Source of the DNA: Devosia sp. Root436
GTDB taxonomy: Bacteria; Pseudomonadota; Alphaproteobacteria; Rhizobiales; Devosiaceae
Assembly: GCF_001426345.1 (NCBI RefSeq)
Contig: NZ_LMEM01000002.1
Location: 62,001 to 126,000 of the forward strand
Direction of reading: 5' to 3'
Length of the DNA: 64,000 nt
Shown here: positions 1 to 14,537 of the stretch, piece after piece
Numbering within the stretch: the stretch's first letter is position 1
Layout of the letters: every line of letters starts with the position of its first letter
Position numbers and translations under genes: made by a program
Notes under the pieces: model-generated
Databases searched by the model: none
What the model was told of the DNA's origin: nothing
Seen by the model: only the letters and a program-made list of their open reading frames with translations

Positions 1-429
1 CATGCCGCGGCTGCCGATGCAGGACACGCCGAAGATCGACACTTCCTCGGCCAGGAAATCCACCACTTCCAGCGTATGCTCCAGTACCACCCCTTGGTCC
101 CGCAAGGCCCGCGCCACTTCCAGCGCCACCACCACCCCGGCGATGCCATCGAACCGCCCGCCATCGGGCACCGTGTCCGAGTGGCTGCCCAGCATGATGG
201 AACCCAGCTCCGGGCGCTTGCCCGGGATGGTGCCGATCAGGTTGCCCGCCGCATCCACCCGCGTCACCGCGCCAGCATCCCGCATGGCCTTTTCCAGCCA
301 TTTGCGGCCCTCGATAAAGAGCGGGGTGAAGGCCCGCCGCGTATAGGGCCGGCCGGGCTCGGTGATGGCGGCCAAAGCGTCGATATCGGCGGCAATGCGG
401 TCGGTGCTTATGGGGGAGTTTGGGATCAT
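1..429 (-). CDS. M20-family N-carbamoyl amino acid amidohydrolase, N-terminal 143 residues
   Basis: Zn-dependent amidohydrolase of the allantoate amidohydrolase / N-carbamoyl-L-amino-acid hydrolase group; such enzymes remove a carbamoyl group as CO2 and ammonia. The reverse strand is open from ATG at 429 to the window edge, so the C-terminal two thirds lies outside. The metal-binding segment GSHSDTVPDGGRFDG gives His83 and Asp94, and the acidic pair Glu128-Glu129 follows, all at the usual spacing. It is the last visible gene of the minus-strand series that includes the hydantoinase-like gene at 734-2089, which fits a ring-opening enzyme followed by a decarbamoylase. From context the substrate may be N-carbamoyl-glutamate; allantoate or another N-carbamoyl amino acid is possible. 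Family sure, substrate inferred. Confidence 0.88.
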   Translation of the reverse strand, partial: MIPNSPISTDRIAADIDALAAITEPGRPYTRRAFTPLFIEGRKWLEKAMRDAGAVTRVDAAGNLIGTIPGKRPELGSIMLGSHSDTVPDGGRFDGIAGVVVALEVARALRDQGVVLEHTLEVVDFLAEEVSIFGVSCIGSRGM

Positions 430-515
430 GACAAGATATCCCCGGACATCGTACCTCCCATACCCCCGACCTTGATCCAGCTATTCGGCCATCGGATAGG
501 GAGTGGAGCAGCAGT

Positions 516-652
516 CACCTCTCCCCTGAGGGGAGAGGTCGGCGCGAAGCGTCGGGTGAGGGGTTCAGCGCCGCGTCGGGCACCGTGCACTTCACCAGCA
601 CTGAACCCCTCACCCCGCCCTCTCCCCTCAGGGGAGAGGGAGCCCACGCTCA
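516..652. repeat. Family A palindromic repeat
   Basis: This fills most of the 304-bp gap 430-733. Two short palindromes (CCTCTCCCCTGAGGGGAGAGG type) sit at the ends and the inner arms (GGTGAGGGGTTCAG / CTGAACCCCTCACC) also pair, so the unit can fold into one long hairpin. Related copies occur throughout the window. No gene is seen in the remainder of the gap. Confidence 0.85.
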
Positions 653-733
653 ATGGGACTGATTGAGCCGGTGCCCCATTCCATAGACGATTGCCCTGCC
701 CTTGTGGGGAGGGAATGAGGGTGGGGGTGCTTC

Positions 734-2089
734 TCAATTCCCCACCTCCGGCCGCACAAACCGCCCCACCCCCGGCTCCGCCACCGCCGTTCCATCAAAC
801 ACCTGCCGCCCGCGCAGATAGGTCAGCCCCACCGTCCACGGCAGTTCGATCCCGTTATAGGGCGACCAACCCACCACATTGTGCCCGCTCGCCGCCGCGT
901 CGTAGCGCATGGGCCGGGGGAACAGCACCGCGATATCGGCATCCTTCCCTGCCGTCAGCGCCCCCTTTCGCGCCAGCCGGAAGTGCCTGGCGGGGTTCTC
1001 CGCCATCAGCCTGGCCGCCCAGGTCAGCGGAATGCCCCGCTTCAGCGCCCCCATGACGAACAGCGGCACCATGACCTCCAGCCCCGGCACGCCCGACGCA
1101 TTGGCCAGCATGTCCGGATTGGTCTTGCGGTTTTCCGACCAGCTCACATGGTCGGTCGAGACCAGCGTGACATTGCCGGCCCGCACATGCTCCCAGAGCT
1201 TTTCCACCTCCACGCGCGGGCGGATCGGCGGATTGATCTTGGCCTTGCCGCCCAGCCGCGCCACGTCGTTTTCTTCATCCAGCGTGAGATAGTGAATGCA
1301 GGCCTCGATCGTCGCGGCATAGCCCTGGTCGCGGTAACTGCGCGCAATTTCATAGCCCCGCCCCAGCGAGCAATGCACCACATGCGCCGGACACCCGGTC
1401 TGCGCCCCCGTCTCGTAGATTTGCAGGCTCGCCAGCAATTCGGTCAGCGGCGGCCGGCTCATGCCATGCGCCCGCCAGTCGGTAATCCCTGCCGCCTTGA
1501 CCTTGGCCATGGCCGCGCGGACCATTTCGTCGTCCTCGTTATGCACGCCCGCCGTCAGCCCGGTTTTCGCCACCGCCGCAAAGCATTCCTCCAGCAAAGC
1601 CGGCGGAATACGCGGAAACCGCACCGGGTCCGTCCCGAAGGTGGAGAATTTGAACGCCGCGACACCCGCTTCGGCCTGCTCCGCAATCCGGCTCGCCCCC
1701 TCTTCCGGGTTGATCGTGCCATAGAGCGCAAAATCCACTCGCGCCTGCTTCTCGGCATGCGCCACCTTGATCCGCACCGCTTCGGCCGAACAGACCAGGT
1801 TCCCCTCGTCATAGGGCATGTCGACAATAGTGGTGACGCCGCCCGCCGCCGCCGAGCGCGTCGACCAGATGAAATCCTCCTGATCCTTCTGGCTCAGCGA
1901 ATGGGTCTGCGCATCGATGGCGCCGGGCAGGATCAGGGCATTGCCCAGCTCGTGCCGCTCATGCGCATGCGGGGCGACGCCCTCCCCCACATGGACGATC
2001 CGGCCATCGCGCACGGCGACGTAGCCATTTTCCACCACCAGATCAGGCAGCACCACCGTACCGGACAGGACTAGATCGAAATCGGACAT
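734..2089 (-). CDS. Hydantoinase/allantoinase-like cyclic amidohydrolase (candidate hydantoin-5-propionate hydrolase)
   Basis: A 451-residue member of the dihydroorotase/allantoinase/hydantoinase family, cytoplasmic metal hydrolases that open five- or six-membered cyclic ureides. Visible are the N-terminal beta-sandwich, the strand ending PGAIDA, a putative carbamylated Lys147 (AAFKFST), His183, His239 (HVVHC) and catalytic Asp313 (STDH). The usual first-shell HxH after strand 1 reads Gln61-Thr62-His63, so one canonical metal ligand is replaced. It lies between the transporter genes and the M20 carbamoylase. In the ergothioneine route an enzyme of this type opens hydantoin-5-propionate to N-carbamoyl-glutamate; that assignment is inferred. 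Allantoin is the alternative, but no other purine-degradation gene is present. Confidence 0.85.
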   Translation of the reverse strand: MSDFDLVLSGTVVLPDLVVENGYVAVRDGRIVHVGEGVAPHAHERHELGNALILPGAIDAQTHSLSQKDQEDFIWSTRSAAAGGVTTIVDMPYDEGNLVCSAEAVRIKVAHAEKQARVDFALYGTINPEEGASRIAEQAEAGVAAFKFSTFGTDPVRFPRIPPALLEECFAAVAKTGLTAGVHNEDDEMVRAAMAKVKAAGITDWRAHGMSRPPLTELLASLQIYETGAQTGCPAHVVHCSLGRGYEIARSYRDQGYAATIEACIHYLTLDEENDVARLGGKAKINPPIRPRVEVEKLWEHVRAGNVTLVSTDHVSWSENRKTNPDMLANASGVPGLEVMVPLFVMGALKRGIPLTWAARLMAENPARHFRLARKGALTAGKDADIAVLFPRPMRYDAAASGHNVVGWSPYNGIELPWTVGLTYLRGRQVFDGTAVAEPGVGRFVRPEVGN

Positions 2090-2120
2090 GTTCTCTTACC
2101 TCTCCAAACCCACCGGATCG

Positions 2121-2270
2121 CCCCTCTCCCCTTGAGGGAGAGGGGGGTTTTCCGCGTCCAGCGGAAAACCGGGTGAGGGGTTCTGCGCGTGCCCATGCTT
2201 CAATGCTTGTAGATAGCGCGGCAACCCCTCATCCGCCCTTCGGGCACCTTCTCCCTCAAGGGGAGAAGGA
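2121..2270. repeat. Family A palindromic repeat
   Basis: A 150-bp unit between the hydantoinase-like gene and the YehW-type permease. The outer arms CTCCCCTTGAGGGAGA and TCTCCCTCAAGGGGAGA flank a GGGTGAGGGGTT / AACCCCTCATCC inner pair and a small hairpin TTTTCCGCGTCCAGCGGAAAA. Confidence 0.85.
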
Positions 2271-2283
2271 AAGAAGAAAGAAT

Positions 2284-3036
2284 TCAAGCCGCCGCCCTCC
2301 CCAATTGTCCGGTCCGCGCCATCAGCCACCGCTCCAGCGCCGAGAGCGCATCATAGATCAGCACCGCAAGCACGCCGACGATCAGCCCCCCCTGCAACAC
2401 AAATGCCGTATTGCTCGATAGCAGCCCGGCAATGATCACCTCGCCCAGCGTCCGCGCCGCCACGGTGGAGCCGATCGTCGCCGTGGCCAGCGAAATCACC
2501 ACCGAGAGCCTTACCCCGGCCAGGATCACCGGCAAAGCCAGCGGCAGTTCGACCTTCACCAGCCTTTGCCAGCCGGTCATGCCGACGCCCTTGGCCGCGT
2601 CGGTCACGGCAGGCGGCAGGTTGGTCAGCCCGGTCAGCGTATTTTCGAAAATCGGTAGCAGCCCATAAAGGAACAGGGCTACCAAAGTCGGCGCCGTGCC
2701 GAAGCCCAGCATGGGCACGGCCAGCGCCAACACCGCCACCGGGGGGAAGGTCTGCCCGATATTGGCCAAGCTCCGCGACAGCGGCAGGAATTCCGCCCCG
2801 AACGGCCGCGTCACGATAATGGCGAGCCCCACCGCGATGATCATGGATGCCACTGTCGCTGCCAGCACGATGGCGAGATGGTTCAGCGTAATGTCGAGCA
2901 GATTGCCTTGGTTGTAGATGGCCGGCTGGTTGTTCTTGGTGAACAGCGTGAAAAAGCCCGAGAACAACTCCGGCCTCACCAGCAGGGCCAGCAGCACGAT
3001 CAAGGCCGCCAGCCTGATGACATTCCCGATGGTCAT
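2284..3036 (-). CDS. ABC permease, YehW/OpuC type
   Basis: A 250-residue inner-membrane permease with about six hydrophobic segments and the binding-protein-dependent transport signature region (DAAKGVGMTGWQRLVKVELP). Its length and sequence match the short permease of YehZYXW/osmoprotectant importers. The start MTIGNV is chosen because its ATG overlaps the stop of the upstream ATPase gene in an ATGA; a longer reading frame upstream is only the out-of-frame image of that gene. It should pair with the long permease at 4198-5388. The substrate is probably a quaternary-ammonium compound; the neighbouring enzymes suggest ergothioneine rather than glycine betaine. Confidence 0.9.
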   Translation of the reverse strand: MTIGNVIRLAALIVLLALLVRPELFSGFFTLFTKNNQPAIYNQGNLLDITLNHLAIVLAATVASMIIAVGLAIIVTRPFGAEFLPLSRSLANIGQTFPPVAVLALAVPMLGFGTAPTLVALFLYGLLPIFENTLTGLTNLPPAVTDAAKGVGMTGWQRLVKVELPLALPVILAGVRLSVVISLATATIGSTVAARTLGEVIIAGLLSSNTAFVLQGGLIVGVLAVLIYDALSALERWLMARTGQLGRAAA

Positions 3037-3968
3037 TGCGGCCTCGCCGCCAGCCGCGACAACGCCTCCAGCGTCACCTGCCCCACCACCTGCCCGTCGC
3101 GCCGCACCGGCAGAGCCGGTCGTCCCGACCACAGCAATTCGGCATAGGCATCGCGCAGCGAAGCGCTGGCCTCGATCGGCTCCCCGGCTCCCTCGCCCGC
3201 CTCGATATGATCGGCCACCCTGGCGAGCGACAGCAGCCGGAACGGCCTTTCGCTGGTGCCGATCAGTTCGGCCACGAAGGGCGTCGCCGGATTGGCGATG
3301 ATCTCGGCGGGCTTGGCGCATTGCAGCAGCTTGCCCTTATCCATGACGGCAATGGTGTCGCCGAGATGGATGGCCTCCTCCATGTCATGGGTCACCAATA
3401 CGACTGTGGTGCCCATCTTGCGCTGGATGGACAGCAAATCCTCCTGCGCCTTGGCGCGGATCACCGGGTCGAGCGCGCCATAGGGCTCGTCCATCAGCAA
3501 TATGTTTGGCGAGGCCGCCAGCGCCCGCGCCACGCCGACGCGCTGCTGCTGGCCGCCGCTCAGCTCATGCGGCAGGCGGTCGCGGAATTCGGCCGGATCG
3601 AGCTGAAACAGGCTCAGCAGCTCATCGACCCGGTCGGCGATCTTCTTCTTGTCCCAGCCGAGCAGCTTGGGCACCGTCGCCACATTCTGCCCCACAGTGC
3701 GGTGCGGAAACAGGCCATGCCCCTGGATGGCATAGCCGATGCGCCGCCGCAGCTCATAGGCCGGAATGCCGGCAATATCCTCGCCATCGATACGGATATG
3801 GCCCGAACTCGGCTCCACCAGCTTGTTGATCATCCGCATCAGCGTGGTCTTGCCCGAGCCCGACGTGCCGACCACCACGCAGATGCTGCGCGGCTCGATG
3901 GTGAGGGTCACATGGTCGACCACGACAGTCCCGTTATAGCTCTTGGTGATGTCGTCGATTTCGATCAT
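3033..3968 (-). CDS. ABC ATP-binding protein with CBS domain, OpuC/YehX type
   Basis: A 311-residue cytoplasmic ATPase of a betaine-type importer. Walker A is VGTSGSGKT, the signature is [15 protein letters not shown], Walker B is ILLMDEPYGALDP and the H-loop is VTHDM. The last 60 residues form a single CBS-like module (PALPVRRDGQVVGQVT), typical of the OpuCA/YehX branch, where CBS domains sense ionic strength. The gene overlaps the downstream permease by 4 bp and is separated from the upstream permease by a Family A repeat, so a single transcript through 4198-2284 is plausible but interrupted by a hairpin. Confidence 0.92.
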   Translation of the reverse strand: MIEIDDITKSYNGTVVVDHVTLTIEPRSICVVVGTSGSGKTTLMRMINKLVEPSSGHIRIDGEDIAGIPAYELRRRIGYAIQGHGLFPHRTVGQNVATVPKLLGWDKKKIADRVDELLSLFQLDPAEFRDRLPHELSGGQQQRVGVARALAASPNILLMDEPYGALDPVIRAKAQEDLLSIQRKMGTTVVLVTHDMEEAIHLGDTIAVMDKGKLLQCAKPAEIIANPATPFVAELIGTSERPFRLLSLARVADHIEAGEGAGEPIEASASLRDAYAELLWSGRPALPVRRDGQVVGQVTLEALSRLAARPQ

Positions 3969-4010
3969 GGCGCACCGAACTCCAGTGGTTGCGGCGAGAA
4001 ATCAGGCCCG

Positions 4011-4150
4011 CTGAGCGTGGGCTCCCTCTCCCCTGAGGGGAGAGGGTGGGGTGAGGGGTTCAGTGCTGATGAAGAGAACAGTGCCGTACGCAGCGCTGAA
4101 CCCCTCACCCGACCCTTCGGGTCGACCTCTCCCCTCAGGGGAGAGGTGAC
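4011..4150. repeat. Family A palindromic repeat
   Basis: It occupies the 229-bp space between the long permease and the ATPase gene. Arms CCCTCTCCCCTGAGGGGAGAGG and CCTCTCCCCTCAGGGGAGAGG flank GGTGAGGGGTTCAG / CTGAACCCCTCACC. It is followed by a GGGAATGAGGGTGGGGGT tail, also seen near 710 and 41110. Confidence 0.85.
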
Positions 4151-4197
4151 GTCTGCTCCACTCCATATGGAGGGAATGAGGGTGGGGGTCACCGCGC

Positions 4198-5388
4198 TCA
4201 TGACCGCCCTCCCCGGCTCGTCATTTCCACCGCAGCGTCCAGCACCACGGCAGCCGCAAAAGCCAAAGCCACGGTCGGCACCGCCCCGAGCAGCACCAGG
4301 TCCATCGCCGTCTGCCCGATGCCCTGGAACACGAAGACGCCGAAGCCGCCGCCACCGATCAGCGCGGCGATGGTGGCCAGCCCGATATTCTGCACCAGCA
4401 CGATGCGGATGCCGGTGAGAATGACCGGAAAGGCCAGCGGCAGCTCCACCTGCATCAGGCGCTGCCACCAGGTCATGCCCATGCCCTTGGCGGCATCGAC
4501 AGCCGCAGGCGAAACGCTCTGCAGTCCGACCACGGTGTTGGAAACGATGGGCAGCAGCGAATAGGCGAAGAGTGCCACCATGGCCGGCGCTACCCCGATG
4601 CCCGAAATGCCGATAGCCGACGCCCCCGGCACGTTGGCCGCTACCCAGGCCAAGGGCGCAATCAACAGCCCGAACAGCGCGATGGACGGAATGGTCTGGA
4701 CGATGTTGAGCACGTTCAGCACCGCCGCCCGCAGCGGCTTCACCTTGTAGCAGAGAATGCCCACCGGCACGCCGACCACGGTGGCAATCGCCACCGAGCC
4801 GAAGGCCAGCGCCAGATGCGTCCGCGCCTCGGCCCAGAAGGCGGCGGCACGATTGGCATATTCCTTGAGAATGGAGAGGTCGTTCCAGCCGCCGCTCCAC
4901 AGCAGGGCAGCCACCGCAAGCGCCACGGCCAGCAAAATGCCGACCCGCACCAGCGGCCTGAGCCGCAGCCTTGTCAGCGCGTCGGTCACCAGCAGCGCAA
5001 AGGCAAAGACCAGCAGCCAGAAGCCGGCCCCGGGCGAAACGCGGGCAAAAGTGTCGCCCTCCGGCGTCAGGTAGCTGGCCGACCAGCCGATGAATACGAA
5101 CAATACCGCCAGCACCAGAAACCCGGCGACCAGCTTGGCGATAACCGGAAAGCGCAGCAGCGCGACGACGAACCCCACCAGCAGCATGCCGATCAGAAAG
5201 CCCGACGGAAGACCCGGCAGCGCATCGAAGAGGCTCCGCGCCTCCCCCACCACGATGCGATTGGCGCGAAACAGCGCAAACGGCAAGGCCGCCCCCACAG
5301 CCGCAATCAGCGCGATCAGCACCCCCAGCTTGTCGAGCGCCAGCCAGGCCGGTCGGGTTGTGATGGCGGTGGTGTCGGCGATGCTCAT
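4198..5388 (-). CDS. ABC permease with long N-terminal membrane region, YehY type
   Basis: A 396-residue inner-membrane permease. The first 180 residues are extra hydrophobic segments; the C-terminal 200 carry the permease core with DAAKGMGMTWWQRLMQVELP and a terminal GGGGFGVFVFQGIG loop. This two-part layout and length are those of YehY, partner of the shorter YehW-type permease at 2284-3036. The MSIADT start at 5388 is preceded by a reasonable ribosome site. A longer frame spanning the region is a shadow. It is the second gene after the binding protein 5581-6492. Confidence 0.9.
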   Translation of the reverse strand: MSIADTTAITTRPAWLALDKLGVLIALIAAVGAALPFALFRANRIVVGEARSLFDALPGLPSGFLIGMLLVGFVVALLRFPVIAKLVAGFLVLAVLFVFIGWSASYLTPEGDTFARVSPGAGFWLLVFAFALLVTDALTRLRLRPLVRVGILLAVALAVAALLWSGGWNDLSILKEYANRAAAFWAEARTHLALAFGSVAIATVVGVPVGILCYKVKPLRAAVLNVLNIVQTIPSIALFGLLIAPLAWVAANVPGASAIGISGIGVAPAMVALFAYSLLPIVSNTVVGLQSVSPAAVDAAKGMGMTWWQRLMQVELPLAFPVILTGIRIVLVQNIGLATIAALIGGGGFGVFVFQGIGQTAMDLVLLGAVPTVALAFAAAVVLDAAVEMTSRGGRS

Positions 5389-5447
5389 GCTGGCTCCGGT
5401 GTCGGTCGCTGGCTTCGCGAGGAACGCGCTTCATACCCCCCCACCGC

Positions 5448-5523
5448 GTCATTCCCGTGAAAGCGGGAATCTCCCTCTTATCGGTGCTCAGGCAAGGGGG
5501 ATTCCCGCTTTCGCGGGAATGAC
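5448..5523. repeat. Family D inverted repeat
   Basis: Two 23-bp arms, GTCATTCCCGTGAAAGCGGG.. at 5448-5470 and its near-complement at 5501-5523, each itself partly palindromic. A second copy lies at 22405-22471. Located between binding protein and permease genes. Confidence 0.85.
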
Positions 5524-5580
5524 GTCGTGGATATGCACGGACAGTTGGGGTGGCGGTACGATGAACGCCACCCCATTCAC

Positions 5581-6492
5581 TCAGTTCAAAAACCCGCCCT
5601 GGGTCAGGTAGTCGGTCGCCACGGCAGCCGCCGCCTCACCGCCCACCTGCACGCGGCCATTAAGTTCCTGCAGCACTTCCAGCGTCAGGCCCTCGAACAC
5701 CGGCTTGAGCAGTTCCTCGATCTGCGGATATTCCGCCAGCACTTCCTCGCGGATGATCGGGGCAGGCTGGTAGACCGGCTGCACGCCCTTGTCGTCCTCG
5801 AGCACCTTGAGGCCCGAGGGGGCGATGCCACCATCGGTGCCATAGACCATGGCGGCATTGACGCCGTTGGTCTGCTGGGCGGCGGCGGCAATGGTGGCCG
5901 CCGTGTCGCCACCCGACAGGGTGATGAGCTGGTCGGGCGAGAGCGTGAAGCCATAGACTTCCTGGAATTTCGGCAGAGCCGCCGGCGAGTTCACGAACTC
6001 CGCCGAGGCCGCGAGCTTGACTTCGCCACCGCCGGCAACCCAGGCGCCGAATTCGCTGAACGTGTTGAGATTGTTGGCCTCGGCCACATCGTTGCGGATG
6101 GCGACGGCCCAGGTATTGTTGGCCGGCGACGGAGTCAGCCAGACGATCTTGTTGGCTTCGAAGTCGAGCTTGGCCGCTTCGGCATAGGCCGAGGCGGCGT
6201 TGTTCCACAGCGGATCATCGGCCTTTTCGAAGAAGAAGGCGGCATTGCCGGTATATTCCGGATAGATGTCGATTTCGCCCGCAGTGATGGCTTCGCGCAC
6301 GATCGGCGTGCCGCCGAGCTGGATGCGGTCGGTGACGGCGATATCGTTGGCTTCGAGCACCTGCTTGATGATGTTGCCCAGAACGCCACCCTCGGTGTCG
6401 ATCTTGGAGGAGACGACCACCTGGGCGTTTGCGGCGGTCATCGAAATGGCGAGCGCGGCCACGGCGGTCAGCAGCGTTGAAGTGAGGCGCAT
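5581..6492 (-). CDS. Periplasmic binding protein, YehZ/OsmF type (candidate ergothioneine/betaine binder)
   Basis: A 303-residue secreted solute-binding protein. A Sec signal peptide ends at ANA-Q (about residue 23). The mature start contains SSKIDTEGGVLGNII, then GGTPIVREAITAGEIDIYPEYTGNA, both hallmarks of the OpuAC/OsmF betaine-binding family. It leads the importer genes 5388-2284 and follows the MIO-less lyase. OpuC-family systems are known to carry ergothioneine in other bacteria, so a trimethylammonium imidazole substrate fits, but the residue-level pocket cannot be judged here. Plain osmoprotectant uptake remains possible. Confidence 0.9.
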   Translation of the reverse strand: MRLTSTLLTAVAALAISMTAANAQVVVSSKIDTEGGVLGNIIKQVLEANDIAVTDRIQLGGTPIVREAITAGEIDIYPEYTGNAAFFFEKADDPLWNNAASAYAEAAKLDFEANKIVWLTPSPANNTWAVAIRNDVAEANNLNTFSEFGAWVAGGGEVKLAASAEFVNSPAALPKFQEVYGFTLSPDQLITLSGGDTAATIAAAAQQTNGVNAAMVYGTDGGIAPSGLKVLEDDKGVQPVYQPAPIIREEVLAEYPQIEELLKPVFEGLTLEVLQELNGRVQVGGEAAAAVATDYLTQGGFLN

Positions 6493-6573
6493 TGGTTTCT
6501 CCGTTTTCTCCGGGCTCCAAGCCCGGCTGTCCCTAGCCTAACCAGTTAGCGGAATTGGGCGAGGCTCCAGATA

Positions 6574-8133
6574 CTAGGCAACCGGGCCCAGCGCGAAAAA
6601 CTCGTCCAACTCCATAATCGTTGAATGGGAAATTAGTTCGTTCATCAGCCCATCGGAGGCCAGGGCCTGTTCGACGGCTTCGACCTCGGCCGATAAAGGC
6701 CGATCCTGCCAGTATGTGTCAGCATGCTGGCGCACCAGCGCGTAAATGATGCCTGGCACATTGCCCGGTGCATCGCCGGATATGTCCATCGCCTGCGCCG
6801 CCAGCATGGCTTCGAGCGCCGCGAGGCGCCGCAAAGCCAGCACCTGGCGCTCCAGCCGCTCCACCACCAGCGGCAGGAACGCTGCTTCGTCCTCTATGCC
6901 CCCGGCCACGACCATGGAATTGGCCGAGATGGCGTTGGTCATGGTGAGGACGCGGGCGAACAGTTCCCCCGCCAGCTTGATGATCGGCCCGAAGCCGGTG
7001 GCGATGGCGCCGGGCGGAACCAGGTTCACCGGCAGGCCGCGCCGCCCGCCATTGCCGAGCAGCACGCAGCGGTTGAACGAATTGCGCGCGATATGGGCCA
7101 GGCCCAGTTGCGCGGTCTGCAGGAACACGGTGACATCGAGCGGCAGCGAGCCCCCCGAGGTCAGCACCTGTCCACCCGCCACCACGGGGTTGTCGTCGGT
7201 CCGCCCGGTCGCGGCCAGCAGGATCTTGCCCGCCGCCACCAGCGTCTCGAAGCCGGTGGCAAAGACCTGGCTCATCATGCGCAGGCTCAGCGGGTCCTGG
7301 ATATGGGTGGCATTGGGCCAGTCCCAGCCCTTGGCGTTGAAATAGAGCCAGGCGCCGATGCCGGCTTCGCGCTCGGTGCCGACATGGGCCACCGCCTTCC
7401 ACGGATCGCGCGAGGCGCCCAGCGCCCCGGCCGTAGTCAGCCCCGTCGCCAGCATGACGCGCACCGCCCCGGCCGCTTCGCGGATAGCGCTGGCGGCGGC
7501 GGCATAGCCCACGGCGTTGGTGGAAATCGAGGCGAGGCTGTCGCGCGGGGCGAGGCGGAACGCCTTGAGCCCGGCCGCGGCCAATGCGTCGCCGGCCGAT
7601 TGGCGGCGGCCGTCAAACATGGCCTCGCCGGCCCCGGTCAGCACGGCGCCGATCTGCCCCATCAATCCGATATCGGCGCAGCCGATCGAGCCGGTGCGCC
7701 GCACCACCGGCACCACATCGGCCGAGAGCAGCGCCAGATAGGCCTCCACCAGGTCGGTGGTGCAGCCCACCCGGCCGGTCAGCGCCATGTTGACGCGAAT
7801 GGCCATGGCGATGCGCACGATCTCGCTCGAAAAGGCATCGCCGGTGCCGAAATGATGCGCCCGCACCAGCCCCATATTGAAGGCATCGAGCTGGTCGGGC
7901 GACCATTCGACATCCTTCATGGCGCCGACCCCGGTGGTGGAGCCATAGACCGGCTGGTCGTTGGCCATGGCCTCTTCGACCACTTCACGCGCCTCGGCCA
8001 CGCGCTTCAGCGCGGCAGGGTCAGCCAGTAGCCGCACCTTGCGAGCGCCGATCCGGGCCATGTCGGAGAAGCTCAGCGGCTGACCGCTAAGGGTGATGGG
8101 CGCGCCTCGCACTGTCATCGCCAGTTCATTCAT
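6574..8133 (-). CDS. Histidine-ammonia-lyase-fold enzyme lacking the MIO triad; candidate ergothionase
   Basis: A 519-residue aromatic amino acid lyase homologue. Conserved are the catalytic tyrosine segment YGSTTGVG (Tyr63), QDPLSLR, DDNPVV and an IED acid. The loop that in histidase reads GSVGASGDLAPL here reads GSIGCADIGLMG: Cys152-Ala153-Asp154 replaces the Ala-Ser-Gly that cyclises to the MIO electrophile. The LNGTQ segment of histidase is also replaced. It therefore should not deaminate histidine. Ergothionase, which eliminates trimethylamine from ergothioneine to thiourocanate, is a HAL-fold enzyme that, as I recall, works without MIO, and the downstream hydantoinase, carbamoylase and betaine-type importer fit that pathway. 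The MNELAM start is preferred; a GTG 24 codons upstream is possible. Confidence 0.75.
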   Translation of the reverse strand: MNELAMTVRGAPITLSGQPLSFSDMARIGARKVRLLADPAALKRVAEAREVVEEAMANDQPVYGSTTGVGAMKDVEWSPDQLDAFNMGLVRAHHFGTGDAFSSEIVRIAMAIRVNMALTGRVGCTTDLVEAYLALLSADVVPVVRRTGSIGCADIGLMGQIGAVLTGAGEAMFDGRRQSAGDALAAAGLKAFRLAPRDSLASISTNAVGYAAAASAIREAAGAVRVMLATGLTTAGALGASRDPWKAVAHVGTEREAGIGAWLYFNAKGWDWPNATHIQDPLSLRMMSQVFATGFETLVAAGKILLAATGRTDDNPVVAGGQVLTSGGSLPLDVTVFLQTAQLGLAHIARNSFNRCVLLGNGGRRGLPVNLVPPGAIATGFGPIIKLAGELFARVLTMTNAISANSMVVAGGIEDEAAFLPLVVERLERQVLALRRLAALEAMLAAQAMDISGDAPGNVPGIIYALVRQHADTYWQDRPLSAEVEAVEQALASDGLMNELISHSTIMELDEFFALGPVA

Positions 8134-8329
8134 GATGGCCACGCTATATCCCAGATAATGAACTGGCCATGCGGTTTTGTTTGCATCGACCCTGGACCAT
8201 CCCACATCATAGCGCTGTTGGAGGCGAAAATCTCGGTTCGCCCGAATACGGCCATGGCCACACAGTAAGGTGATAACTTAAGTATTGAGGTCCCACCGGA
8301 TCGGGATTACTAAAGCAAAAACCTAACTA

Positions 8330-8499: not shown

Positions 8500-8832
8500 T
8501 CACTTCATCCAGAACATCGGAACGAGATCGGTGGACACCGGCTCGTTCTTCTCATTCGTGGCCATCACATCGGCCATATGCGCCCACCAGCGCTGCATCA
8601 CCCCGGTAGTCGGCAAGTCCGCCATCCCATGGTCAACCCGCCGCCACAGCACCCCGAACAGGATGCCCGTCTCTTCATCGAGATGGATCGAATAATCCTT
8701 CACCCCCGCCGCATGCAACAGGTCCACCAGCTCGGGGAAAATCTCGTCGTGGCGCTTCTTGTATTCCGCTGCCATGCCGGGGTTGAGCTGCATCTTGAAG
8801 GCGTGTTTTTCGTAGCCACCATCCCTGATCAT
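8500..8832 (-). CDS. rhaU: L-rhamnose mutarotase
   Basis: A 110-residue cytoplasmic epimerase that interconverts the alpha and beta anomers of L-rhamnose, supplying the anomer that the isomerase prefers. The ferredoxin-like fold is recognised from [20 protein letters not shown], the central YSIHLDEE strand and the C-terminal [13 protein letters not shown]...LVPMFWM. The start MIRDGG overlaps the rhaQ stop as ATGA and gives the family length (about 105); a start five codons upstream is less likely. It is the last gene of rhaRSTPQU. In Rhizobium a kinase gene, rhaK, follows here; in this window a repeat and an unrelated gene follow. Confidence 0.93.
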
Positions 8833-9824
8833 GCGCGCTGCCTCCACATGCGGAACAGGATGGGCAGCGCGATCACCACGATCAGCAGCGAGCCGGTGAA
8901 AATGGTCATGACGATACCCGGCACGTTGAGCAGCCCCAGCCCGAAGGTCACCAGCCCCACGATGACGGCCGCCAGCACCACGCCGAGGATGGAACCGGCC
9001 CCGCCCAGGATCGACACCCCGCCCAGCACCACCATGGTAATGGCCTCCAGCTCGAACCCCTCGGCAATCGACGGCCGCGTCGACCCTAGCCGCGCCGTCA
9101 ACAGCACGGCGGCGAGGCCGCTCATCAGCCCGGTCAGGCAGAACAGGATGAACTTGATGCGGTCCACCCGCACGCCGGAGAACCGCGCCGCCACGTCATT
9201 ATTGCCGATAGCGAAGATGCGCCGGCCGAAATTGGTGCGGTGCAGCAGCACCCAGTAAATGACGGCGCAGAGCAGGAACAGCACCAGCTCGAACGAGATC
9301 ACCCAATACACGTAGCCCTGCCCGAGCCAGGCAAAACTCTTGGGATAGCCCTTGAAGCTCTGGTCACCCAAAACGATGAAGGCAATGCCGCGAAACAGGC
9401 TCATCGTGCCGATGGTGACGACAATGGACGGCAGCTTGAGCCCCGTCACCAGAAACCCGTTGAACGCCCCGCAGGCAATGCCCACCCCGATCCCGACCAT
9501 GACCAGCACCGGCGTATCGGCGCCATATTGCAGCGCCAGCCCCATCATGGTCGAGGCCAGCGCGATGATCGCCGCCACCGACAGGTCGATCTCCCCCGAA
9601 ATGATCAGCAGCGCCATGGCCAGCGCGATCAGCGCCTTTTCGGTGAAATTGAAGGTGAGGTCGGAAAGGCTCCAGGCATTGAGGAAATAGGGCGAGGCAA
9701 AGGAATTGAGGATGAAAATCCCCAAGGCCACGAGCACCAGCAGGCTCTCCCAGCTCAGCACGGCTGAGCGGAATGGATTGTCGAGGCGGTTGGGAAGAGA
9801 GCGGTGGAGGGATGTATCGGTCAT
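8829..9824 (-). CDS. rhaQ: Rhamnose ABC transporter permease RhaQ
   Basis: A 331-residue RbsC/AraH-type inner-membrane permease, second of the pair that carries L-rhamnose. Hydrophobic segments alternate with the family motifs [16 protein letters not shown] (residues about 80-95) and [18 protein letters not shown] near the C-terminus. The start MTDTSL at 9824 is the last of several in-frame candidates upstream of the homology. A Family B repeat of 134 bp lies between rhaP and this start, so translation is not coupled to rhaP. The product's role rests on position between rhaP and rhaU. Confidence 0.9.
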
Positions 9825-9850
9825 GAGCAGAAGTCCGGAAGACATGCGTC

Positions 9851-9984
9851 GTGCCACGCCCTCGTGGTTCGAGGGTCGCTGCGCTCCCGCCTCACCATGA
9901 GGGCTACTGGGAGCTCGGTTTCAAAGTAGCCCTCATGGTGAGGCGCGAGCTCTTTGCGAGCCTCGAACCACGAGGGCGTGCCAC
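9851..9984. repeat. Family B palindromic repeat
   Basis: Complete copy: outer arms GCCACGCCCTCGTGGTTCGAGG / CCTCGAACCACGAGGGCGTGCC and inner arms CCTCACCATGAGGGCTACT / AGTAGCCCTCATGGTGAGG form one long imperfect hairpin. Sits between rhaP and rhaQ. Confidence 0.88.
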
Positions 9985-9999
9985 CATATCGCCACTCCA

Positions 10000-10977
10000 T
10001 CACACACTCTCCGCCGTCTTCAGGATCACCCGCCCCTTGCGCCGCTCGCCGCGCGCATTGAGCACCACGGCGAGCAGGATCGCCGTGCCCGAAATGGCCA
10101 TTTGCCAGAAGGGCGAAATATTGATCACCGGCAGCGCGTTATTTATCACCCCGAGGAATACCGCCCCCAGCAACACACCCACCACGCTGCCGATGCCCCC
10201 GGCAATCGACACGCCCCCGATGACGCAGGCGGCGATGATGGTCAGCTCATAGCCGCCGGCCACTTCCACCGAGGCGATCACATAGCGCGAAATCCACAAA
10301 TACCCGCACAGCCCCGCTACCGCCCCCGAAATGACGAAGGCATAGAACTTGGTGCGCCCGACATCGATGCCGGTATAGACCGACGCCGTCGGGTTGACGC
10401 CGATGGCATAGAGCGCCCGCCCCAGCGGCGTCCGCGTCATCAGCACCCAGAACAGCGCGGCCACCACGATGGCGAACCAGCTCAGCAGCGGCAGGCCGAG
10501 AAATGCAGCGCGCTGCAGCCCGATGAAATCGGGGCTCATCTGCGCCGCATTGACCCAGGCGCCAGCGGAAATCACGAAAACCAGCCCGCGAAAAATGGTC
10601 AGCGTGCCCAAAGTCACCACGATGGGCGGAATATTGAGCTTCCACACCAGCACGCCGTTGAAGGCGCCCAAAGCCGCGCCCACTCCGACGCATCCCGCCA
10701 TCAGCAGCGGGATCGGCACGCCCGGAAAGGCCGCATTGGTCATGGCCACGACCATCCCGGTCAGCGCCAGGTTGGACGCCATCGACAGGTCGATGGACCG
10801 CGTCAGGATGACCGCCATCTGCCCCAAGGCCAACATCATCAAAATCGACGTGTCATTGAAGATGGTCAGCAGGTTGCCCGGCTGGGCAAAGCGCGGAAAG
10901 CGTGCCGTCACCAGGACAAGCACGAGCAGGATCGCCAGAACCAGGAAGATTTCACGGTGCTTCAACAGCCGGTTCAT
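10000..10977 (-). CDS. rhaP: Rhamnose ABC transporter permease RhaP
   Basis: A 325-residue RbsC/AraH-type permease with about nine hydrophobic segments. The motif TRSIDLSMASNLALTG lies near residue 60 and GGVSIAGGIGSVVGVLLGA near residue 260. Its ATG at 10977 overlaps the rhaT stop by 4 bp, so the two are translationally coupled. It forms the membrane channel with RhaQ, energised by RhaT and fed by RhaS. Confidence 0.92.
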   Translation of the reverse strand: MNRLLKHREIFLVLAILLVLVLVTARFPRFAQPGNLLTIFNDTSILMMLALGQMAVILTRSIDLSMASNLALTGMVVAMTNAAFPGVPIPLLMAGCVGVGAALGAFNGVLVWKLNIPPIVVTLGTLTIFRGLVFVISAGAWVNAAQMSPDFIGLQRAAFLGLPLLSWFAIVVAALFWVLMTRTPLGRALYAIGVNPTASVYTGIDVGRTKFYAFVISGAVAGLCGYLWISRYVIASVEVAGGYELTIIAACVIGGVSIAGGIGSVVGVLLGAVFLGVINNALPVINISPFWQMAISGTAILLAVVLNARGERRKGRVILKTAESV

Positions 10978-12503
10978 GCCGCCTGCTCCTCGGCAATACC
11001 CGCCGCCAGCCGCACCAGCACTTCCGGCTTGAGGTCGGTATTCTCGAGCGTATCGATCACCCGCCCCTCGCGCATCACCACGATCCGGTCGCTCATGCCG
11101 AGCACTTCGGGCAGTTCCGAAGAGACCATGATCACGCTCAGCCCCTGCGCCACCAGTTCCCCCATGAATTCATGCACCGCCGCCTTGGAGCCGATATCGA
11201 TGCCCTTGGTCGGTTCATCCAGAATGATCACTTTCGGCAGGGTCGCCAGCCATTTGGCGATCACCACCTTCTGCTGGTTGCCGCCCGACAGGGTCGAGAC
11301 ATCCTGGCTCAGCGACGACGCCCGCAGGTCCAACCGTTCGGTATAGGTCCGCGCCAACGCAAACTCTTCCGCCAGGCGCAAAAAGCCCGATTTGCTGGTC
11401 TTGCCCAGCGAAGGCAACGAGACATTCTTGAAAATCGGCTCGCCGGTAATCACCCCCTGCTTGCCGCGCTCCTCGGGCACATAGACGATCCCCGCTTCCA
11501 CCGCATCGGCGGGCGATTTCGGCGCAATGGCCCTGCCCTCCAGTGTCAGCGTGCCGCCGGAGGTCTGCGTCAGGCCGAACACTGCCTGCATCACCTCGCT
11601 GCGCCCGGCCCCGACCAGCCCATAAAAGCCCAGTATTTCGCCCTTGCGCACGGCAAAGGACACATCATCGAATTCGGTCGGGTGGCTCAGCCCCTTTGCC
11701 TCCAGCACCACATCGCCGATCGCGGCATTGCGCGCGGGGAAAATGTGATCGACCGAGCGGCCGACCATCATCTGCACCACCTGGCTCTGGCTGGTGTCCC
11801 TGATGAAGCCTTTGCCCACCTGCTCGCCATCGCGGAACACGGTGAAGCGGTCGGCGATGCGATAAATCTCATCGAACTTATGGCTGATGAACAGGATCGC
11901 CTTGCCATCCTGCTTGAGCAGGTCGATGAGCACGTAAAGCTCCTCGATTTCCTTCTGGCTCAGCGCGGCGGTCGGCTCGTCCATGATGACGACCTGCGCG
12001 TCGATACTGAGCGCCCGCGCCACCGCCACCAGGTGTTTCTTGGCAATGCCCAGTTCCTTGAGCTTGATGCCTGCGTCGATATCGGCCGCCATGGAATCGA
12101 GCGTCGCCTGCGCCTCGGTCCGCATCTTGCGCCAGTCGATCAGCCCCAGCCGATTGGTCGGCGCGTGACCCAGATAGATATTCTCGGCCACGGTCAGCTC
12201 GTCGAACAGCACCGTCTCCTGATGGATCGCCGTAATCCCCGCCGCCGAAGCCGAATGGGCCGTCGGCAGGCTCACCACCTGCCCCGCCACGCGGATTTCT
12301 CCCGCATCGGGCTGGTAAATCCCGGTCATCACCTTGACCAAAGTCGATTTGCCCGCCCCGTTCTCCCCGATCAGCGCGGTGACCTCGCCGGCATAAAGCT
12401 CCAACGACACATCATTGAGCGCCCGCACGCCGGGAAAACTCTTGGATATGCCTCTGAGGGTAAGGATGGGGTCGGTCATAGATGTAGGTGTTCCGCTTGT
12501 CAT
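10974..12503 (-). CDS. rhaT: Rhamnose ABC transporter ATPase RhaT (two nucleotide-binding domains)
   Basis: A 509-residue double ATPase of the RbsA/MglA sugar-importer class. Domain 1 has Walker A GENGAGKS and Walker B VVIMDEPTAALS; domain 2 has the signature LSGGNQQK followed by VIILDEPTKGIDIG and a degenerate Walker A (GLVGAGRS), the normal asymmetry of this class. The start at 12503 (MTSGTP) has GGAG 9 bp upstream and is preferred over MTDP at 12479. The frame continues upstream through a Family A repeat, which is not coding. Confidence 0.93.
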   Translation of the reverse strand: MTSGTPTSMTDPILTLRGISKSFPGVRALNDVSLELYAGEVTALIGENGAGKSTLVKVMTGIYQPDAGEIRVAGQVVSLPTAHSASAAGITAIHQETVLFDELTVAENIYLGHAPTNRLGLIDWRKMRTEAQATLDSMAADIDAGIKLKELGIAKKHLVAVARALSIDAQVVIMDEPTAALSQKEIEELYVLIDLLKQDGKAILFISHKFDEIYRIADRFTVFRDGEQVGKGFIRDTSQSQVVQMMVGRSVDHIFPARNAAIGDVVLEAKGLSHPTEFDDVSFAVRKGEILGFYGLVGAGRSEVMQAVFGLTQTSGGTLTLEGRAIAPKSPADAVEAGIVYVPEERGKQGVITGEPIFKNVSLPSLGKTSKSGFLRLAEEFALARTYTERLDLRASSLSQDVSTLSGGNQQKVVIAKWLATLPKVIILDEPTKGIDIGSKAAVHEFMGELVAQGLSVIMVSSELPEVLGMSDRIVVMREGRVIDTLENTDLKPEVLVRLAAGIAEEQAA

Positions 12504-12530
12504 AGGCCGAGCTCCGGAACTCGATCGGTC

Positions 12531-12661
12531 CCCTCTCCCCTGAGGGGAGAGGGTTAGGGTTAGGGTGAGGGGTTCAGAGGTTGTGAGGGCATCGAGTGCC
12601 ACCCACCACCGAACCACTCACCCGACCCTTCGGGTCGATCTCTCCCCTCAGGGGAGAGGTG
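12531..12661. repeat. Family A palindromic repeat
   Basis: Arms CCCTCTCCCCTGAGGGGAGAGG and CTCTCCCCTCAGGGGAGAGG with inner GGTGAGGGGTTCAG / GAACCACTCACC. Lies between rhaS and rhaT. A GGGTTAGGGTTAGGGTGAGG stretch is inside. Confidence 0.85.
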
Positions 12662-12668
12662 AGAAAGA

Positions 12669-13655
12669 TCAGTAGATCTTCGAAAACTCTTCGATGTTGG
12701 ACTTGTCGAAGGTGAACGGAGGCGCCATGGCGCCCGAGTTGGTGTCGTCCAGCGTCAATTCGCCCATGCGGCCCATCGACAGGGTTGCGCCGGGGGCGGC
12801 TTCCCCGCCTTCGACCAGGTCATTGGCCAGCATGACGGCGGCATAGCCCAGGTCGATCGGGTTCCACAGTGCCACGGCCTGGCTCGCGCCATTGTCGATG
12901 AACTGCTTGAACTCGCTCGGCAAAGCCAGGCCGGTCACGTTGATCTTGCCGATCAGGCCCTGGTCGGTCACCACCTGCGCAGCCGCCACGACGCCGACCG
13001 TGGTCGGGGCGATGATGGCCTTGAGATCGGGATAGGACGCGATCAGGCCCTTGGCTTCGTCGGTCGACTTCACCGAGTCATCGTCGCCATAGACCACCGA
13101 GACGAGGTTGATGTTGGGGAACTTCTCGGGGATCACGGCCTTGGCGGCCTCGATCCAGGCATTCTGGTTGGTCGCGGTCGATGCGGCCGACAGGATCGCC
13201 ACGTCGCCGCCTTCGGGCAGGTAGTCGGCGGCCAGCTTGATGATGGTCTCGCCGATCAGGCCGATGTCGGACGGGTTGAGGTGCAGCTGGCGGCCTTCGG
13301 GGGCAACGCCCGAGTCCCAGCTAATCACCTTGATGCCGCGCTCCATGGCCTTCTGCAGGGCCGGAACCAGCGCGTCGGGATCGTTGGCCGAGATGGCGAT
13401 GGCATCGACCTGCTGGGCGATCAGCGAGTTGACGACTTCGATCTGGGCTTCGGCCGTGGCGGCGGTCGGGCCGGTATAGATGACTTCGACGTCACCCAGT
13501 TCAGCGGCCGCTTCCTGGGCGCCCTTGTTGGCGGCGTCGAAGAAGCCGTTGCCGAGCGACTTCACCACCAGTGCGATGCGGGTCTGGGCATAGGCCGGGG
13601 CGGCGAGCAGCACGGCGACGGCCGTGGTGGTAGCCAAAATCTTCAAGAGTTTCAT
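12669..13655 (-). CDS. rhaS: Rhamnose periplasmic binding protein RhaS
   Basis: A 328-residue Sec-exported binding protein of the ribose/rhamnose class (PBP1-like). The signal peptide ends APAYAQ-T near residue 24; the mature start TRIALVVKSLGNGFFDAANKGAQEAA is the family hallmark, followed by DAIAISANDPDAL. A strong GGAGGG ribosome site precedes the ATG. It is the first transporter gene after the regulator, and the hairpin repeat just downstream may help keep its mRNA level above that of rhaTPQ. Confidence 0.94.
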   Translation of the reverse strand: MKLLKILATTTAVAVLLAAPAYAQTRIALVVKSLGNGFFDAANKGAQEAAAELGDVEVIYTGPTAATAEAQIEVVNSLIAQQVDAIAISANDPDALVPALQKAMERGIKVISWDSGVAPEGRQLHLNPSDIGLIGETIIKLAADYLPEGGDVAILSAASTATNQNAWIEAAKAVIPEKFPNINLVSVVYGDDDSVKSTDEAKGLIASYPDLKAIIAPTTVGVVAAAQVVTDQGLIGKINVTGLALPSEFKQFIDNGASQAVALWNPIDLGYAAVMLANDLVEGGEAAPGATLSMGRMGELTLDDTNSGAMAPPFTFDKSNIEEFSKIY

Positions 13656-13700
13656 ACGGAATCCCTCCCTGGGATGTTCTGGTCTTTGGCAGTCTTTGTC

Positions 13701-14537
13701 TCAGGCGACCGTTTTCTGGTCCCCTTGAGCGCTGGTTTCCGCCACGAGGAGCCGCACGCCTGCCGTTTCCAGCATTTGTCGGTCTTCGTCGCGGATGCCG
13801 CTGTCGGTGATGACGGCGGCAATTCGGTCGAGCCCGCACAGGATCAGGCTCGATCTCCCCGAAAACTTCGATGAATCCGCCAGCACGATCAGCTCATCGG
13901 CCTGCCCGATCAGGGCCAGTTCGGACTGCACGACCATCGGGTCGGCCTCCATCAGGCCATGGGCGCCGATGCCCTGGCAGCCGATGAACATGCGCTTGGC
14001 GTAGAAATGCGATGCCACCACGCCGCCAAAGGGCGAGAGGATGACATTCTGCTCGCGATAGATCGTGCCGCCGGGAATGACGACCGAATTGCGCGAATTG
14101 TGGATCAGGAATTCGGCAATGCCGAAGCTGTTGGTGAACACCGAGAGCCGTTTGCCGGTCAGGTGATGCACCATCTGGTAGGTTGTCGTGCCGCCGTTGA
14201 TGATGATGGGCTCGCCGTCATTGCACATCTCGGCGGCCATGCGGGCGATGGCGCGCTTCTGCGCGATATTGAGCGTTTCGTTGACCGAGAAGGGTCGCCC
14301 CATCAGCCCGCCCTGCGCCGGCGGCGTCAATGCCTCGGCCCCGCCACGCACCCGGCGCAACTGCCCCTGCACATGCAAAGCCGCGATGTCCCGGCGGATC
14401 GTCGCTTCCGACGAGCCGGTGACCTCGCACAGGTCCGCCACGGTCGCGACGGGGCGCGACTGCACGGCGGCCAATATGACGCGATGACGTTCGGTTTCGT
14501 GCAAATGACTTCTCCCTGCTCCATTTGCTTCCATCAT
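13701..14537 (-). CDS. rhaR: DeoR-family rhamnose regulator
   Basis: A 278-residue DeoR-type regulator. An N-terminal winged helix (TERHRVILAAVQSR, then SSEATIRRDIAAL, about residues 15-60) is followed by the DeoRC sugar-phosphate sensor with INGGTTTYQMVHHL, NSFGIAEFL and ADSSKFSGRS. Such proteins usually repress and are released by a phosphorylated sugar, here perhaps rhamnulose-1-phosphate. It begins the minus-strand rha operon, 150 bp from the divergent rhaD, and likely acts on the palindromes at 14573-14606. Confidence 0.9.
   Translation of the reverse strand: MMEANGAGRSHLHETERHRVILAAVQSRPVATVADLCEVTGSSEATIRRDIAALHVQGQLRRVRGGAEALTPPAQGGLMGRPFSVNETLNIAQKRAIARMAAEMCNDGEPIIINGGTTTYQMVHHLTGKRLSVFTNSFGIAEFLIHNSRNSVVIPGGTIYREQNVILSPFGGVVASHFYAKRMFIGCQGIGAHGLMEADPMVVQSELALIGQADELIVLADSSKFSGRSSLILCGLDRIAAVITDSGIRDEDRQMLETAGVRLLVAETSAQGDQKTVA

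Follow-up and report, generated by a model that had tools for sequence, protein, structure and literature searches.

A nine-gene run in Devosia sp. Root436 with a predicted role in ergothioneine uptake and breakdown to glutamate

Gene content of the locus

We analysed a 64,000-nucleotide stretch of the Devosia sp. Root436 genome (contig NZ_LMEM01000002.1; C2:62001-126000 of a 3.9 Mb genome; hereafter the window), whose left end carries a run of minus-strand genes with a predicted role in the uptake and breakdown of ergothioneine. The original prediction, made from the letters of the window, had described seven such genes; all seven lie where it placed them, and Pfam agrees with the families it named. 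The run reaches ~3.7 kb past the window's left edge, to C2:58262 (about -3738 in window coordinates). The edge splits the gene of ErtE, the remainder of which is followed on the same strand, and at close spacing, by genes for a thiohydantoin desulfurase and a urocanase-like hydratase. Both enzymes had been expected to the left of position 1, and both pass thio-specific NCBIfam equivalog models; the neighbours on this side are ert genes and not the purine or pyrimidine genes against which the prediction was set.

The nine genes are given below from right to left, in window coordinates unless marked C2. Paired values are bit scores and model cut-offs. Step numbers follow the five-step bacterial pathway of ergothioneine catabolism reportedly set out by Beliaeva et al. 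in 2021, in what is said to be its order.

6574-8133, minus strand: lyase without 4-methylideneimidazole-5-one (MIO), proposed ergothionase (step 1); PF00221 Lyase_aromatic, 273.8 bits; ATG start, with an alternative upstream GTG at 8205
5581-6492, minus strand: substrate-binding protein (SBP) of OsmF/YehZ type, betaine-family ATP-binding cassette (ABC) importer; OpuAC, 185.3 bits; NF049931 OsmF, 494.7/400
4198-5388, minus strand: ABC permease, betaine type; PF00528 BPD_transp_1, 79.2 bits
3033-3968, minus strand: ABC ATPase, betaine/proline/choline type; PF00005 ABC_tran, 116.7 bits; TIGR01186, 280.4, below its cut-off of 326.6
2284-3036, minus strand: ABC permease, betaine type; PF00528, 71.1 bits (scanned as 2284-3117)
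734-2089, minus strand: ErtD, putative hydantoin-5-propionate amidohydrolase (step 4); Amidohydro_1; NF058538, 780.3/600
1-429 (full gene C2:61176-62429), minus strand: ErtE, putative N-carbamyl-L-glutamate amidohydrolase (step 5); Peptidase_M20; NF058540, 584/520
C2:60082-61176, left of the window, minus strand: putative thiohydantoin desulfurase (step 3), 364 residues, DUF917/S-Me-THD; NF058529, 593.2/440
C2:58262-59923, left of the window, minus strand: putative thiourocanate hydratase (step 2), urocanase homologue, 553 residues; NF058530, 1045.5/930

Enzymes of steps 2 to 5

Four of the five pathway enzymes (hydratase, desulfurase, ErtD and ErtE) score above the NCBIfam cut-offs for ergothioneine catabolism, which by sequence assigns each enzyme of steps 2 to 5 to its family. 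Broader models are passed as well, by the hydratase on hutU (TIGR01228, 685.9/375) and by ErtE on two hydrolase models (NF009531, 635.2/486, outscoring the 584 on NF058540; TIGR01879, 351.7/204). ErtD (734-2089) carries DAQTH at the metal-motif site of cyclic amidohydrolases. These enzymes usually have the motif DxHxH, so the first metal ligand of ErtD may be Gln.

One alternative is that a hut or a hydantoin/pyrimidine degradation operon has been misread as ergothioneine catabolism. A lyase of histidine ammonia-lyase (HAL) fold with a urocanase homologue is how hut begins, a hydantoinase with a carbamoylase makes up a hydantoin route, and the hydratase does pass the hutU model. We regard this alternative as highly improbable. 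On the thio model NF058530 the hydratase reaches 1045 bits, versus about 660-720 bits for presumed canonical HutU proteins (full-length, from other genomes; 667-700 within Devosiaceae). The DUF917 desulfurase adjoins the hydratase, MIO is missing from the lyase, and among the nine genes there is neither hutI nor hutG (no genome-wide hutI/hutG search was made). The lyase is the genome's only PF00221 match, and no second urocanase-family match occurs in the genome besides the hydratase; since both lie inside the gene run, the run is not a degraded hut operon. A hut operon was rejected on the missing MIO and the absence of any other HutH- or HutU-family gene from the genome, in agreement with the earlier view that canonical histidine use was unlikely. 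Allantoin or pyrimidine use was rejected as well: ErtD scores 780.3 on NF058538 versus 268.4, below cut-off, on the allantoinase model.

The true substrate might instead be S-methyl-ergothioneine or ergothioneine sulfonate, given that NCBIfam holds S-methyl variant models and that the title of a published paper names ergothioneine sulfonate catabolism. For hydratase and desulfurase alike, the score clears the free-thione model and stays under the cut-off of the S-methyl one (NF058531, 740.5 against a cut-off of 880; NF058532, 287.6 against 450), on which ground the S-methyl variant was rejected, and none of the nine genes resembles one for an oxidoreductase, for sulfite handling or for methyl transfer. 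We consider either substrate improbable.

The genome has no match to the EgtD family (PF10017), and ergothioneine would therefore have to come by uptake. For the trimethylamine expected from step 1, both genome matches to the gmaS model TIGR03105 are below cut-off (best 245.1 against 469.6), so no trimethylamine route was found in this search, which was confined to gmaS.

A divergent lyase without MIO

The lyase had been predicted to lack the MIO triad, and alignment bears this out: the site is GSIG-CA-D, against GSVG-ASG-D in Pseudomonas putida HAL, and thus has no MIO tripeptide. In P. putida HAL numbering, N195 is replaced by Ser and Y280 by Leu, the same changes as in the Treponema denticola ergothionase (PDB 6s7j), while Tyr53, His83, Gln277, Arg283 and Glu414 are retained. 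Of the 26 ert-type lyases in a 51-lyase alignment, 25 have CA-D and one has TA-D; in Devosiaceae, CAD is found in 34 of 42 lyases and TAD in seven, with the site of one not covered. The closest named relative, from Devosia sp. Root635, is 97% identical, in a comparison from which the Root436 genome's own records may be missing.

The original prediction had proposed a comparison with characterised ergothionases, and the T. denticola enzyme is the closest solved protein in both sequence and fold. It is the top hit of a PDB sequence search (175.7 bits; a probable HAL is second at 136.8), and of a search with a profile of 24 lyase relatives (253.5; second 210.4). An AlphaFold2 model of the lyase (mean predicted local distance difference test score, pLDDT, 87.1; below 50 at residues 1-7, 72-74 and 404-417) has 6s7j as its best fold match, with template modelling (TM) scores of 0.88/0.92 and a root-mean-square deviation (rmsd) of 2.5. 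HALs come near these values (TM 0.82-0.84/0.85-0.88, rmsd 3.0-3.8). From these comparisons we infer that the lyase would convert ergothioneine to thiourocanate and trimethylamine.

A tree of 51 lyases places the 26 of ert type on one side with the T. denticola ergothionase; the branch that divides them from the 24 remaining rows, HALs included, has support of 100/98. A second tree of 29 rows (25 of the 51, with L288, L291, L295 and L296 added) separates the ert-type lyases and those of T. denticola, Burkholderia and Paracoccus from the remaining 14 rows (96/91). Of the 29 lyase loci L199-L227, the trees omit four as fragments or broken (L221, L224, L225 and L227). As to the predicted placement with ergothionases, the lyase falls on their side, apart from HALs; within that side, the 12 ert-type rows of the smaller tree form their own 100/100 branch, which is very long and drew long-branch warnings from the program. 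For this reason it is, on sequence grounds, only likely that the ert-type and T. denticola-type lyases, both without MIO, share an ancestor.

The first enzyme varies among such clusters. In Burkholderia arboris and Paracoccus denitrificans, the lyase near the hydratase and desulfurase is of T. denticola type (GEA-DIT); the hydratases and desulfurases are 67-79% identical to those of Root436, the lyases just 29-31%. A cluster in Deinococcus has a third kind of lyase (TSLGES-DLA). In genome G615 (L327:8252-12594), an MIO-intact lyase (GSVGASGD) has a thiohydantoin desulfurase and a thiourocanate-type hydratase as immediate neighbours, and could be a thiohistidine ammonia-lyase that provides an entry to the same pathway. 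Speaking against a clean replacement of one lyase by another, the window-type lyase itself diverges much more quickly than its partners (37% versus 75% identity in G774).

Further observations concern related lyases and clusters. On the Rhizobium ruizarguesonis plasmid pTA1_1 (L288:6318-8825), an annotated hutH lacks MIO (GSIGAA-D) and has the ergothionase as its best PDB match (264.2 bits; second 243.2); a glycine betaine SBP and hutC adjoin it, with a putative sulfate exporter nearby. The HAL-like proteins of L217, L219 and L223 have GSVGY at the MIO site and Leu for HAL Y280, and fall on the HAL side of the tree; a urocanase homologue is near two of them. Agrobacterium tumefaciens plasmid pAt (L294:9881-20948) carries a cluster of DUF917, urocanase, amidohydrolase, Zn-hydrolase and betaine importer genes, together with a molybdopterin S/N-oxide reductase and a glutathione transferase homologue, with no lyase within the stretch.

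The OsmF-type importer

The importer had been described as an OpuC/YehZYXW-type system for ergothioneine. Its type stands: the SBP passes the OsmF model and is the sole OsmF match in the genome, and the subunits are one SBP, two permeases and one ATPase. The importer is not an EgtU, and the case for its ligand is weaker than first put. EgtUC comprises residues 233-506, the binding domain of a longer EgtU protein, and the roles of its ligand residues were taken from its published description (PMC9732360). Aligned with the SpEgtUC ligand site, the SBP agrees at 7 of 15 positions and differs at eight; membership of EgtU was rejected because G244, F293, R379 and others are not conserved.

Within Devosiaceae, an OsmF match over cut-off occurs in 89 of 136 genomes, at 92 places, and the hydratase is over cut-off in 50 of the 136. 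In five Devosia loci (L254-L257 and L262) the importer stands beside rhaU, as it does in the window, with no ert genes within the 13 kb fetched. A comparison of 48 ert-linked with 35 unlinked SBPs gives the same most frequent residue at 14 of the 15 ligand-site positions. No SBP position separates linked from unlinked proteins past an overlap threshold of 0.35; the equivalent of EgtUC T274 leans that way, with Gly commonest in linked (38/48) and Ala in unlinked proteins (25/35). On a quick SBP tree (L083 left out for its stop codons), the linked label takes 14 changes, seven of them forced by starred branches, compared with a mean of 26.8 after shuffling; none of 500 shuffles was as low, although near-copies help this clustering.

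The same data bear on a second reading of the importer, compatible with the proposed enzymes, in which it is a general betaine importer (of glycine betaine, proline betaine or choline-like compounds) and ergothioneine is either one ligand among many or taken in by a different route. The OsmF model that the SBP passes is a glycine-betaine model, linked and unlinked ligand sites are nearly alike, and the label changes repeatedly on the tree. For a Sinorhizobium meliloti SBP 78.5% identical to that of Root436, the annotation shows no ert gene up to 8 kb away, and the neighbour of one from Paracoccus ferrooxidans (71.7%) is a proline racemase gene cluster. On the other side, importers of this kind are repeatedly linked to ert genes, in Devosia, Salinarimonas, Martelella, Ochrobactrum (divergently oriented) and genomes G567 and G774, linked SBPs cluster on the tree, the T274 equivalent differs, and unlinked copies could import ergothioneine as an antioxidant. 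We hold a general betaine importer to be quite possible, at somewhat below even odds. Because the Root436 importer is of OsmF/YehZ type rather than EgtU, and this type often stands without ert genes, its ergothioneine uptake is read from repeated gene linkage, which makes it plausible.

Conservation across relatives

Gene content and order of the run are conserved well beyond strain Root436. We compared 51 Devosiaceae loci, drawn from 49 of the 50 genomes with a hydratase over cut-off (Root436 itself left out) and two partial loci. In 34 of these, all nine genes share a single order and strand, although one of the 34 (L083) has broken frames; the other 17 are nine short contigs and eight longer loci with some genes missing. 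Such recurrence in fixed order and strand indicates that the arrangement is not due to chance.

A survey of named records covered 83 loci, on 80 genome contigs (the best 80 of 258 relatives) and three plasmids. All nine genes are in order in 21, and 40 have the lyase and four enzymes without the importer. Shinella L169, additional to these 40, has the lyase and four enzymes and no importer, with an unrelated ATPase further off; the single Ochrobactrum locus has all nine genes with the importer divergently oriented. In 12 loci other partial sets are found, several of them ended by contig ends, and in eight the lyase has no other ert gene within 10 kb; six of these eight genomes have a hydratase over cut-off elsewhere. 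Many of the named-record loci look like the same assemblies as the Devosiaceae genomes (L087/G046, for example), and the two surveys are therefore not independent of each other. Genomes were scanned with motifs of the window's lyase type, and other lyase types could therefore not be found.

Many Rhizobium have the window-type lyase together with the four other enzymes; one annotated Rhizobium record labels the five aromatic amino acid ammonia-lyase, amidohydrolase, Zn-dependent hydrolase, DUF917 and urocanate hydratase. The nine-gene order is also kept in two genomes from other families of the class, G567 (lyase 50% identical, partners 58-81%) and G774 (L328; lyase 37%, partners 49-75%). Among 398 genomes drawn from the phylum, six have a hydratase over cut-off, namely Root436 and five of the same order, and a desulfurase over cut-off occurs in 5 of 385 genomes of the class, Root436 included.

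Proposed pathway

Taken together, the gene run most probably serves ergothioneine uptake and five-step breakdown to glutamate, as a source of nitrogen and perhaps of carbon and sulfur; we put the probability at about 0.86. In this proposal we infer the lyase substrate, the importer ligand and transcription of the nine genes as a single operon. The OsmF-type importer would take up ergothioneine, a betaine. The MIO-less HAL-fold lyase would remove trimethylamine to give 2-thiourocanate, which the urocanase-family enzyme would hydrate to thiohydantoin propionate. The DUF917 enzyme would then strip the sulfur, giving hydantoin-5-propionate. ErtD is predicted to open the ring of this compound, and ErtE to hydrolyse the resulting N-carbamoyl-glutamate to glutamate.

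Several observations weigh against this proposal. The lyase is 27-28% identical to the sole solved ergothionase, and no NCBIfam model names it: its top NCBIfam matches are HAL models far under cut-off (HutH model TIGR01225, 201.2 against 539.15), and none of the lyases scanned matched a naming model above cut-off. Further MIO-less lyases with no assigned role occur in the same class, and loss of MIO alone is no proof of an ergothionase. Gene sets also vary. Among the 42 Devosiaceae loci longer than 15 kb, eight are incomplete; L043 is without ErtD, L058 and L074 are without ErtD and ErtE, no importer was seen in L038, L042 and L076, and neither lyase nor importer in L035 and L060. Two of the eight lyase-alone genomes have no hydratase over cut-off (one, G588, has matching pieces in broken frames), and ert clusters in Thalassospira and genome G424 have no lyase in the stretch fetched. 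For the importer, the eight differences from EgtUC include the carboxylate-binding Arg379, and 35 of 40 OsmF loci, a non-random sample hand-picked from the 92 for distance from the hydratase, have no lyase or ert genes beside them (five stand beside the lyase).

A bolder extension would hold that a second, separately evolving ergothionase lineage, in Hyphomicrobiales and a few other alphaproteobacteria, fills step 1 before Burkholderia/Paracoccus-like downstream enzymes, and that alphaproteobacterial OsmF/YehZ importers, including the solved and betaine-labelled 4nd9, 5teu and 5uve, carry ergothioneine for catabolism or antioxidant use according to species. Both halves holding together is a tentative idea that we consider rather unlikely.

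The pathway itself is already known; the unusual parts are the divergent first enzyme and the OsmF-type importer. Among the titles and abstract openings searched, none describes this operon, and none was found that pairs ergothioneine with Devosia; the lyase type may already be characterised, for example in Agrobacterium radiobacter. According to a 2026 paper (PMC13405746), ergothionase has been definitively identified in just a few organisms, and the homologue search of that paper leaves divergent homologues unaccounted for. The locus offers candidates for such homologues inside complete catabolic runs of Devosia and relatives. If the proposal is correct, soil and root bacteria would be likely consumers of fungal ergothioneine, and ergothioneine transport by OsmF transporters would become directly testable.

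Neighbouring features

Just upstream of the gene run, the region 8500-14537 encodes L-rhamnose mutarotase RhaU (TIGR02625 over cut-off); beyond it are genes of a sugar ABC importer and one for a DeoR-like regulator, both assigned by eye only. In some relatives, too, rhaU is near ert genes. A palindromic intergenic element of ~130-170 nt (CCTCTCCCC...GGGGAGAGG) occurs at 496-664, 4000-4168 and about 12530-12662, in gaps between genes of the ert run and close to the operon that follows. Copies one and two are mutually inverted and 90% complementary.

Comparison with known systems

Relative to the known five-step pathway, the four downstream enzymes are alike in scoring over the NCBIfam Ert cut-offs; the far-diverged lyase and the OsmF-type importer inside the gene run are unlike it. 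With the T. denticola ergothionase, the Root436 lyase shares the HAL fold, the loss of MIO with one residue fewer, and the N195 and Y280 substitutions. It differs in reading GCA-DIG rather than GEG-DIT at the MIO site, in having Ser at the F329 equivalent, and in its separate 100/100 branch.

The importer belongs to the same SBP superfamily as EgtU/EgtUV, and its SBP retains the equivalents of K242, I243, T275, N339, E375, Y419 and Y443. At the other ligand positions it has Asp for G244, Gly for T274, Tyr for F293, Asn for T296, Ala for Y337, Trp for Y341, Ser for R379 and Ala for D381, and it consists of a separate SBP and two permeases, whereas the EgtU binding domain is a portion of a longer protein. 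In subunits the importer resembles E. coli OsmF/YehZYXW, which likewise combines a single SBP with two permeases and an ATPase; the SBP passes the OsmF model. E. coli YehZ (4wep) has the Arg and Asp of EgtUC R379/D381, both of which the Root436 SBP lacks, and the Root436 importer further differs from OsmF/YehZYXW in its placement among ert genes.

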